The translations under genes were made by a program, and so were the position numbers. The notes below the pieces were generated by a model. That model made no database searches. It saw only the letters and a program-made list of their open reading frames with translations, and was not told where the DNA came from. From the NCBI RefSeq assembly GCF_001583495.1, contig NZ_LQAQ01000012.1, forward strand, positions 45,790-109,789: DNA of 64,000 nucleotides. The letters are read 5' to 3'. Shown piece by piece: positions 41,215-42,878 of this stretch; within the stretch, counting starts at the first letter, position 1; the number at the start of each line of letters is the position of its first letter. The stretch comes from Flammeovirga sp. SJP92 (lineage in GTDB: Bacteria; Bacteroidota; Bacteroidia; Cytophagales; Flammeovirgaceae).

Positions 41215-41315
41215 TCTTATCGCAAAAGAGTCTGTTTCTAGCAACAGAGCCTCTAAGGATTAGTCACTGTGTTATCAGAATAGAATATTTTCTATCTTTT
41301 TAATGAAAATATTTC

Positions 41316-41346
41316 AAGCTTCTAATTGAATTTAGAAGCTTTTTTT
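41316..41346 (+). terminator. Terminator of the methyltransferase gene
   Basis: AAGCTTCTAA / TTTAGAAGCTT hairpin followed by a T run, 100 bp after the stop. Confidence 0.85.
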
Positions 41347-41475
41347 ATGGATAATAGTTTATCATTAATAAATCACTAAATAACACTTTAAATAAGCTAG
41401 ATGAATTATGATTTTATTAAATATAAAGCTAAATTATTACCAATATCATAAATAATAAATTATTTTATTGAAAAG

Positions 41476-41507
41476 TTTGTATTTGAAATTAATATTATCT
41501 TACTTTG
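41476..41507 (+). promoter_or_regulatory. Promoter for the tRNA-like pair (TTTG-N20-TTACTTTG)
   Basis: TTTG at 41476-41479 and TTACTTTG at 41500-41507 are separated by 20 nt, one mismatch to the TAnnTTTG -7 consensus. The TSS would be near 41514, 57 nt before the first tRNA-like gene. It shows the plus strand is transcribed here. Confidence 0.55.
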
Positions 41508-41559
41508 TATCAACGAAAAGGGAAAAAGATTAAACGAATCGCAATAACCCTTCAAAAAA

Positions 41560-41727
41560 TTTGAAATACACTGTAAGGTGATGAAACTGGCAGACATGCC
41601 CTCCTGTCTCGGGGGTGGAGATTCGCGATAAACACTTGGTAATGGGTTGACCACTAAACGTGCGATGCATACACGATTTGTCAAGAGGCTAAGTACTCCG
41701 TGAAGGTTCGAATCCTTCCCTTACAGC
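41560..41727 (+). repeat. First copy of a 168-bp direct repeat
   Basis: Near-identical to 41759-41926, differing at five or so positions; offset 199 bp. The repeat unit contains one tRNA-like gene and about 11 bases upstream of it. Confidence 0.95.
41571..41726 (+). tRNA. tRNA-like gene, copy 1, with ~85-nt extra region
   Basis: A cloverleaf can be drawn by eye. Acceptor TGTAAGG (41572-41578) pairs with CCTTACA (41719-41725); an eighth C-G pair (41571/41726) extends it. U8-G9, D stem ATG/CAT with a Leu-type loop AAACTGGCAGA, then G26. Anticodon stem CCCTC/GGGGG with loop CTGTCTC, which reads as anticodon GUC but puts U at position 37, where a purine is normal. T stem GAAGG/CCTTC with loop TTCGAAT. 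Between the anticodon stem and the T stem lie about 85 nt instead of 4-20. An alternative is that TGTC...TGTC flanks an insert, whose removal leaves CTGTCAA in the anticodon loop. CCA is not encoded. Function is uncertain. Confidence 0.55.
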
Positions 41728-41758
41728 AACTCTCAACATAACGACGTTGAGCATAACT

Positions 41759-41926
41759 TTTGAAATACACTGTAAGGTGATGAAACTGGCAGACATGCCC
41801 TCCTGTCTCGGGGGTGGAGGTTCACGATAAACACTTGGTAATGGGTTGACCACTACACGTGCGATGCACACACGATTTGTCAAGAGGCTAAGTACTTCGT
41901 GAAGGTTCGAATCCTTCCCTTACAGC
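41759..41926 (+). repeat. Second copy of the 168-bp direct repeat
   Basis: Near-identical to 41560-41727. A short hairpin CTCAAC/GTTGAG (41733-41751) lies between the copies. Confidence 0.95.
41770..41925 (+). tRNA. tRNA-like gene, copy 2, with ~85-nt extra region
   Basis: Same fold as copy 1: acceptor TGTAAGG/CCTTACA with an extra C-G pair, Leu-type D-arm, anticodon stem CCCTC/GGGGG, T-arm GAAGG-TTCGAAT-CCTTC. The differences from copy 1 lie only in the long insert (five or so); the tRNA body is unchanged. The changes include TTCGCG to TTCACG opposite CGTGAA, which keeps pairing through a G-U to A-U exchange, hinting that the insert has a conserved fold. A strong terminator follows at 41935. 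The antisense frame encodes REGFEPS, the usual shadow of a T-arm. Confidence 0.55.
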
Positions 41927-41927
41927 T

Positions 41928-42878
41928 TTAATTAAGCTTCCTAGATTCTTTTAGGAGGCTTTTTTTATTCGCTACCGTTTTCACAAAAGACAAAACTACA
42001 TTGCTTGCTTCTACAAAAAAACCAATATTGATATTCTCAAAAGTGTCAGTTGGCCTATGATAATGTTGGTGTTCTTCTACTCCAAAATAGATAAAAGGTA
42101 CTCCTTTTTTATGGAATTCTCCATGGTCAGACAAAAACACCCAATTATTCAATCCATCATCTCTTTTTCTATCATGTCCATATTTTATAGAAAGGTCACA
42201 ATATTCTAAAGTCTCATTGATATCTTTTTTGAATTCTGGATGAAAGTTAGTACCAGTAACAAACAACTTATCTTCACTGCTTATGGAAATCATATCCATA
42301 TTAATAAAAAGATGAATTGATTCATTGGGTAGTAAATTACTATTGACAAAATAATTAGAGCCAGCACACCTCATTTCTTCTGCGTCAAAAGAAATAAACA
42401 CGATCGGTAATGAAGCTGGTTGAAGTTTCAGTTCTTTTGCAATTTCTATCAATGCCGCTACACCTGAAGCATTATCGTCTGCTCCATTATAAATATCTCC
42501 AGCATAGACACCTAGGTGATCATAATGGGCACCAACTACAATACATCCTTGACTTGGATTTTTGATTTCAGTACCTTCCAGATAACCAATTACATTATGT
42601 GCTGTAGGATTAACATTAAAAAGTCTGTTGTGAAATTTAAAGGTTTGTACATAAGTAGAATCCAATGGTTTTAAACCTATTTCTTCGAATTTTTCGACAA
42701 TAAAGTCCCTAGCCATTCGCCCTCCTTTAGTATCTGTTTTTCTACCCTCAAATGCATCTGAAGATAAAATTCTAGTAGTCGTTAATAAGGAGACCGAATT
42801 GATTCTTGATTCCTGTGCAATACAAATCGAAGTCACTACAAGTAAGGTAAAAGAAAGAAATGCTCTAAAGATGGACAT
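41928..42878 (-). CDS. M28-family zinc aminopeptidase
   Basis: A 316-residue secreted metallopeptidase. Signal peptide 1-21 (ending SICIAQ). All zinc ligands of the M28 family are visible: His in GAHYDHLGVYAG near 118, Asp in NGADDNASGVAAL near 134, Glu-Glu in SFDAEEMRCAGS near 168, Asp in FINMDMIS near 193, and His in GVEEHQHYHRPTDT near 279. Likely cleaves peptides or amino acids in the periplasm. Operonic with the HhH gene 10 bp upstream. The plus-strand terminator of the tRNA-like pair falls inside the C-terminal codons. Confidence 0.92.
   Translation of the reverse strand: MSIFRAFLSFTLLVVTSICIAQESRINSVSLLTTTRILSSDAFEGRKTDTKGGRMARDFIVEKFEEIGLKPLDSTYVQTFKFHNRLFNVNPTAHNVIGYLEGTEIKNPSQGCIVVGAHYDHLGVYAGDIYNGADDNASGVAALIEIAKELKLQPASLPIVFISFDAEEMRCAGSNYFVNSNLLPNESIHLFINMDMISISSEDKLFVTGTNFHPEFKKDINETLEYCDLSIKYGHDRKRDDGLNNWVFLSDHGEFHKKGVPFIYFGVEEHQHYHRPTDTFENINIGFFVEASNVVLSFVKTVANKKSLLKESRKLN
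41935..41967 (+). terminator. Terminator of the tRNA-like pair
   Basis: AGCTTCCTA / TAGGAGGCT, 9 bp with one G-U, followed by seven T on the plus strand. It overlaps the end of the M28 coding region on the other strand. Confidence 0.8.

Follow-up and report, generated by a model that had tools for sequence, protein, structure and literature searches.

What kind of RNA is encoded by two neighbouring tRNA-like genes, each about 156 nt long, in which an extra segment separates the anticodon stem from the T stem? The pair was noticed in a 64,000-nt stretch of the genome of Flammeovirga sp. SJP92, which I will call the window (position 1 being its first letter). The initial annotation, made from the sequence letters, offered three readings: a class II tRNA with a giant variable arm, a tRNA with an intron-like insertion, or a tRNA-like regulatory RNA.

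The window copies and their detection

Both genes lie where the annotation had placed them (Table 1), as direct tandem repeats on the plus strand with a period of 199 bp, the second copy 97% identical to the first. From T1 to G73 they span 41572–41726 and 41771–41925, 155 nt each, or 156 nt with the base at −1. The parts read from the letters proved to be as described: the acceptor stem TGTAAGG/CCTTACA, the Leu-type D arm, the anticodon stem CCCTC/GGGGG and the T arm GAAGG-TTCGAAT-CCTTC, with 86 nt (the estimate had been about 85) from the anticodon stem to the T stem. The pair is flanked by genes for a protein with a below-cut-off tetrapyrrole-methylase match and for an M28 peptidase.

Table 1. 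Features of the tRNA-like RNA pair, in window positions.
Feature	Position	Strand	Basis
tRNA-like RNA copy 1 (C at −1, then T1 to G73)	41571..41726	+	cmsearch with model R1, 196.1 bits; copy in R1 training set
tRNA-like RNA copy 2	41770..41925	+	cmsearch with R1, 192.8 bits; copy in R1 training set
Acceptor stem 5' strand, copy 1	41572..41578, partner 41719-41725	+	Several covarying pairs; U1-A72 and G2-C71 invariant
Anticodon arm CCCTC-CTGTCTC-GGGGG, copy 1	41599..41615	+	Stem variants in relatives: CCCGC/GCGGG, CCGTC/GACGG, CCTCC/GGTGG, others
Giant variable region, copy 1, 86 nt	41616..41701	+	Pair counts against shuffles
Variable-region base stem, copy 1	41617-41620/41696-41699	+	Pair counts against shuffles
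Variable-region short stem, copy 1	41625-41626/41693-41694	+	Pair counts against shuffles
Variable-region central helix, copy 1	41635-41642/41678-41685	+	Pair counts against shuffles
Variable-region hairpin, copy 1	41659-41662/41672-41675	+	Pair counts against shuffles
T arm, copy 1	41702..41718	+	Covariation pair counts
Hairpin in spacer between copies, 6 pairs	41732..41751	+	Terminator/hairpin scan
Intrinsic-terminator-like hairpin, 12 pairs, with T run	41934..41961	+	Terminator/hairpin scan
Putative Bacteroidota-type promoter, near-match (TTTG ... TACTTTG)	41476..41507	+	Pattern scan; one base short of TAnnTTTG

A promoter and a terminator had also been said to bracket the pair. The terminator stands, as a terminator-like hairpin of 12 pairs, and four terminator-like sites fall within 41230–42000 (shuffled mean 0.3), two of the four being one upstream hairpin counted on both strands. 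The promoter stands as a near-match only: the exact pattern TTG-N18-24-TAnnTTTG, which I take to be the Bacteroidota housekeeping promoter, was not found upstream of the copies in the window, where only the one-base-short form occurs. Across the RNA family 87 of 191 upstream regions contain the exact pattern, where resampling gives a mean of 3.3 and a maximum of 7. The hairpin in the spacer may play a role in processing.

Standard tools pass over both copies. Default ARAGORN reports no tRNA in the whole window, and Rfam 15 at gathering scores reports in it only the signal-recognition-particle RNA (bacterial small type, 2161–2251 on the minus strand) and nothing on the two copies. Run over the unit itself, Rfam 15 gives three weak matches to other families, at no more than half their gathering scores, and it gives no gathering-score match in 20 loci with relatives of the RNA. 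An origin from a plasmid or phage was considered and set aside, a window copy having no DNA-level match in the collections of either. No earlier report was found by title or abstract opening in the open-licence PMC literature, and the RNA may have been in print before.

Spread among relatives and comparative fold

A search of Flammeovirga-like genomes, suggested with the annotation, recovered the repeat in all nine genomes of the genus, more than chance would give: 35 copies, two to six per genome, arranged in tandem in eight of the nine (both copies of G007 sit at two contig ends). A covariance model, R1, trained on 25 distinct genus copies (two copies having been dropped beforehand), matched 18 of 18 genomes in the family sample at E ≤ 1, tRNA-sized matches included; family matches of 85 nt near 58 bits are of tRNA size, and the one in the window's genome (G000) is its tRNA-Leu(GAG). 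Long forms of 109–158 nt occur in the nine genus genomes and in G010, G011 and G013–G017, one further match of 204 nt spanning a run of N, and the less complete genomes G009 and G012 give only tRNA-sized or contig-end matches.

Of the 390 genomes in the order sample, 331 have a match at E ≤ 1e-6; by hand count the best match of 44 of these is weaker than 1e-13, the tRNA-sized level, leaving about 287. One genus of that sample (g20) is patchy, with many genomes at E about 1e-20 and many only at tRNA level near 1e-10. With a second model, R2, at E ≤ 1e-15, matches were found in 69 of 395 genomes of the class sample and 32 of 296 of the phylum sample, two of the latter outside the class; the two samples share genomes, and each count includes one match of ordinary tRNA size (G029, 77 nt). 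Among the matches listed, pattern-selected copies with the motif come from Flammeovirga, Algoriphagus, Cyclobacterium, Hymenobacter, Pontibacter, Dyadobacter, Spirosoma, Marinoscillum, Portibacter, Saprospiraceae and Chitinophagaceae. The two window copies belong to a widely conserved bacterial RNA family that is missing from Rfam.

The fold of this RNA rests on comparison, since minimum-energy folding of six copies, each by itself, does not in every case give the structure that covariation supports. In the 25 genus copies that structure has 8 helices and 39 pairs; 98.9% of cells are paired, 6 pairs have changes on both sides and the covariation score is 0.163 (0.102 when shuffled), values each reached by none of 500 shuffles, and in slid versions of the structure the paired cells drop to 32–54%. 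The shuffles are beaten on four of five measures, further pair types standing at 14 against 15.4. With 105 distinct rows from genus to order, in an alignment fitted to the covariance model, 96.6% of cells are paired, 29 of the 39 pairs have both-side changes and 0 of 500 shuffles were as high on all five measures. Covariation, the check that the annotation itself had named, is found above shuffles with 25 rows and with 105, and supports the first of its readings, a class II body with a giant variable arm.

T1 is preceded by C, U or A, and only in 86 of the 105 rows does this base pair with G73, for which reason the acceptor branch is taken as 7/5. A 7-bp acceptor stem and D, anticodon and T arms make up a cloverleaf; the RNA is a 7/5 body of tRNA-Leu type, with real anticodon and T arms, to which a giant variable arm has been added.

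Counts of single positions will be given for 169 copies (104 from the order and family, 65 from the class and phylum, these including one order genome). The copies come from among the matches listed, mostly the higher-scoring ones, and the models behind them were trained on sequences of this kind; constancy is therefore overstated. The anticodon stem is mismatched in one of the 169 (CCCTC/TAGGG), and its paired variants are CCCTC/GGGGG, CCCTC/GAGGG, CCCGC/GCGGG, CCGTC/GACGG, CCGCC/GGCGG, CCTCC/GGTGG and CCAGC/GCTGG. I also considered whether this arm (CCTCC) mimics an anti-Shine-Dalgarno sequence and rejected the idea, since the stem drifts to CCCGC/GCGGG, CCGTC/GACGG and others with its pairing kept.

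The variable arm starts from a 4-bp base and continues through a short, bulged stem and an internal loop to an apical domain; the whole region measures 39–127 nt by approximate count. Its base is 100% paired in the 105 rows, with 3 of the 4 pairs changed on both sides. A pairing of TTCGCG or TTCACG with CGTGAA, proposed in the annotation, crosses this base and had to be given up; the G/A site at which the copies differ (41625 in copy 1) faces U41694. The internal-loop pattern NANAAA + CYAA occurs in 103 of 104 order/family copies (GATAAA in 63, CTAA in 100). Among the 66 copies from class and phylum, 51 have it (GATAAA in 24, CTAA in 49), and 12 of the 15 that are missing it are shorter than 125 nt. 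Where the loop is present, the pair closing the apical domain is formed in 102 of 103 order/family copies (shuffled mean 62.0) and 47 of 51 class/phylum copies (30.2). The domain itself differs between lineages, from a small hairpin in 109-nt forms up to a large structure, and the 142-nt genus copies cleanly lack the segment GGGTTGACCACT. By eye, some copies in the class-level relatives L365, L382 and L385 have an extra hairpin-sized insertion in the D loop.

Acceptor end, anticodon loop and neighbouring regulator

When the body without its variable region is compared to the tRNAs fetched from the window's genome, the best score (20.5) goes to tRNA-Leu(GAG), the same gene that R1 hits off target, and the next (12.0) also to a Leu tRNA. 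By eye the D arm with its 3-bp stem and Leu-type loop, T44, the 4-bp arm base and the GT preceding the T stem are as in tRNA-Leu, as are the 7-bp acceptor and 5-bp T stems, and on these resemblances the body evidently descends from the tRNA-Leu type. It differs from tRNA-Leu in its Asp-like loop, its variable region of 39–127 nt, the scarcity of a purine at position 37 (5 of 169) and its discriminator base: the leucine identity base A73 is absent from the 169 counted copies, all of which have G73.

G73, U1-A72 and G2-C71 are present in 104 of 104 order/family and 65 of 65 class/phylum copies counted; in 111 pattern-selected copies outside the count, G73 and G2-C71 occur in all and U1-A72 in 109. 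C74 is encoded in 113 of 113 copies of the set A4 (the full CCA in 15) and in 66 of 66 of A6, and the ordinary tRNAs of the window's genome, as printed by ARAGORN, likewise have C74 encoded with the rest of CCA mostly missing. The 3' end would be finished by the CCA enzyme.

The anticodon loop combines constant and drifting positions. U35 and C36 are present in 169 of 169 loops and C38 in 167; at position 34 a G stands in 82 of the 104 order/family copies, replaced by A, C or U in the other 22, and in 64 of the 65 from class and phylum. Of the order/family copies 98 have U33 and none has a purine at 37; of the class/phylum copies 46 have U33 and 5 such a purine. Over the whole count U33 is present in 144 of 169 copies and missing from 25. 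The fetched stretches of the window's genome hold 90 ordinary tRNAs, of which 87 have U33 and 84 a purine at 37. (Ile and Ala tRNAs are not among the 90; they are perhaps in unassembled rRNA operons.) Because U33 is lost in 25 loops and purine 37 present in so few, ordinary decoding by the giant-arm RNA seems unlikely and a non-decoding role likely.

What synthetase might recognize such an RNA? The aspartate identity set is listed in PMC9976931 and PMC6523644 as G73, G34, U35, C36, C38, G2-C71 (minor), G1-C72 and G10. The giant-arm RNA keeps G73, U35, C36 and G2-C71 in all 169 copies, C38 in 167 and G34 in 146; it has lost G10, found in 1 of 105 rows, and G1-C72, found in 0 of 169 (U1-A72 throughout). 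Because the kept bases overlap the aspartate set, AspRS is most probably the enzyme that would charge it. The loss of G34 in 22 of 104 order/family copies counts against recognition by AspRS, which might also clash with a giant variable arm.

Outside the window's own family, the RNA commonly stands beside one particular gene. It encodes a protein of about 154 aa and, in 35 of 40 order loci, is transcribed away from the RNA, starting 121–287 bp upstream of it by first ATG. A profile of the protein finds it in 36 of the same 40 loci and in 20 of another 21 from the order (near-identical genomes among them); in the class and phylum samples it has this divergent placement, no more than 400 bp upstream, at 28 of 40 loci, with both genomes from outside the class among them. 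Over loci of all kinds it is beside the RNA in 106 of 165, some of the others being cut by contig ends. The protein carries Lrp/AsnC ligand-binding and DNA-binding domains, and its best PDB match is E. coli AsnC (2cg4, 114 bits; the next match has 79 and E. coli Lrp 36). The asnC gene of E. coli runs divergently from asnA. All 18 genomes of the window's family have the regulator, which adjoins the RNA in none of 11 loci there. In 19 of the 40 order loci the same regulator adjoins a following gene that is, by its sequence, presumably sufB, and its link with the RNA could be mere old synteny. The annotation's reading of a tRNA-like regulatory RNA is partly favoured, by the loop features and by this linkage in other families.

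Possible functions

The reading I prefer, with a probability of roughly 0.4, is that of a leucine-tRNA-like RNA family whose variable arm has grown into a structured domain and which works outside decoding, as a charged but non-translating tRNA. Of this reading, the comparisons establish the fold, a body of tRNA-Leu type, a wide distribution with frequent tandem copies, a constant G73 and, outside Flammeovirgaceae, a conserved place beside the AsnC-type gene; aspartate charging, docking by way of the arm and regulation by the AsnC-type protein are suggestions with modest support. The RNA is predicted to be transcribed from a Bacteroidota promoter, cut from its precursor by tRNA-maturation enzymes and completed to CCA on the encoded C74. 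A synthetase, most probably AspRS, would then charge it, and the loss of U33 and of purine 37 would prevent it from decoding efficiently. The giant arm, in which the internal loop (usually GATAAA/CTAA) is conserved, may dock a protein that senses the charging or makes use of it, and amino-acid supply may set the level of the RNA by way of the divergent AsnC-type regulator. Its job would possibly be that of an amino-acid-linked signal or carrier RNA. A tRNA-derived RNA with a giant domain, found across much of a phylum and missed by Rfam and default ARAGORN, would if so read represent the recruitment of tRNA bodies on a wide scale for a stable non-decoding role, and it offers a directly testable case in its charging synthetase, its arm-binding partner and its control by an AsnC-type protein.

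It is possible, if somewhat unlikely, that the RNA is never charged and only mimics a tRNA, the body serving maturation, stability or the binding of tRNA-handling proteins and the giant arm being the working regulatory part. Such a mimic could well vary at positions 33 and 34 and differ by lineage in its apical domain, as this RNA does, and several copies per genome suggest high dosage; however, a G73 and first two acceptor pairs constant in 169 of 169 copies and a C74 that is always encoded exceed what a mimic needs, and the keeping of U35, C36 and C38 also argues against it.

In an unlikely elaboration the RNA would be an aspartate tRNA as old as the phylum, taking no part in decoding and serving as an amino-acid gauge: AspRS would load it, an amidotransferase might convert the load to asparagine, the arm would present it to a dedicated protein and the AsnC-type regulator would set transcription. 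If true, most sampled Cytophagales genomes would put the charging system to a second use, away from the ribosome. The conversion step is included because U1-A72 is an amidotransferase mark, these enzymes relying on U1-A72 of tRNA-Gln (PMC9976931). In a hand comparison of 59 genomes (RNA-positive meaning a best E under 1e-13), the GatB amidotransferase is present in 41 of 41 RNA-positive genomes and 12 of 18 others, a distribution that fits tRNA-dependent asparagine formation and is confounded with small genomes. The idea that by this route the RNA replaces asparagine synthetase was rejected as unsupported: TIGR01536 has a match over its cut-off, which may include paralogues with other tasks, in 38 of 41 RNA-positive genomes and 14 of 18 others. 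AsnRS is found in 59 of 59, so asparagine charging can do without the amidotransferase route.

A decoding tRNA with an oversized variable arm, for Asp codons or for a recoded site, is improbable, given the losses at position 33, the near absence of a purine at 37, the drift at 34 and the three ordinary tRNA-Asp(GTC) genes among the 90 of the window's genome. Against this must be set that tRNAs whose variable arm ended in a hairpin aptamer were translationally active in E. coli (PMC7590224), and that position 37 is the only difference between the loop CTGTCTC and the CTGTCAC of the genome's tRNA-Asp. U37 alone is no bar to decoding, since six of nine tandem tRNA-Lys(UUU) genes (G000:C93:295307-295889) have the loop CTTTTTA, with U in place of a purine there.

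Serine is a doubtful candidate for the amino acid carried. An acceptor of the allo-tRNA kind would recruit SerRS by G73 and a long variable arm, the anticodon being ignored; SerRS uses these two features and a Leu-to-Ser identity switch follows A73G (PMC9976931, PMC7609411), and G2-C71 is kept. The C72 of bacterial serine identity (PMC9976931) is A72 here, however, the anticodon arm, not required by SerRS, is among the best-conserved parts, and the arm base is by eye built like that of tRNA-Leu. The allo-tRNAs described in PMC7609411 are also of class II, with anticodons unmatched to the body, some in polycistrons, and are suggested serine acceptors; unlike their 8/4 or 9/3 structure (a 12-bp acceptor branch), the giant-arm RNA is 7/5 by pair counts, its arm is far larger and structured, an AsnC-type gene lies alongside it, and it occurs in Bacteroidota, the allo-tRNA groups there being Clostridia, Proteobacteria and Acidobacteria.

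Other known RNAs are more distant. A long variable arm and G73 are shared with tRNA-Sec, but the giant-arm RNA has no obligatory eighth acceptor pair (−1 and 73 are unpaired in 19 of 105 rows), and a UCA anticodon occurs in none of the 169 counted loops. The tRNA-like ends recall tmRNA, from which the RNA differs in having an anticodon arm and a full D arm; ARAGORN gives no tmRNA at the window copies, and a stretch that by eye resembles the 3' end of the genome's own tmRNA lies elsewhere. The tRNAOther of Bacillus cereus and the staphylococcal non-decoding tRNA-Gly are, like the giant-arm RNA, tRNA-like RNAs with tasks beyond decoding, but they are of ordinary tRNA size, come from other organisms and are not known to have a giant arm.

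An ordinary tRNA-Asp with an intron in its anticodon loop, the second reading in the annotation and the call that ARAGORN makes for both copies when introns are allowed (tRNA-Asp(gtc), 74-nt intron), can be dismissed: the presumed 3' exon strand, TGTCAA, pairs with TTGGT in a covarying helix inside the variable arm, the second TGTC is not conserved (relatives without it include TTTGCTTAAAAGC in G008), the unspliced anticodon stem CCCNC/GNGGG covaries, and removal of the insert restores no conserved anticodon arm.

Ordinary tRNAs of the window's genome are also found in long tandem arrays, of nine Met, nine Lys and seven Phe genes. Three of the nine Met copies (G000:C112) have C33 and an altered T loop, and may be decaying or specialised. 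There is besides a second odd tRNA-like gene (G000:C99:171476-171598) of 123 nt, which Rfam RF00005 matches with 42 bits and default ARAGORN misses. It is 95% identical in G002, with partial matches in G001, G005 and G008 and none in the other four genus genomes, and the insert in its anticodon region can form an 8-bp stem, AATATTTA/TAAATATT.
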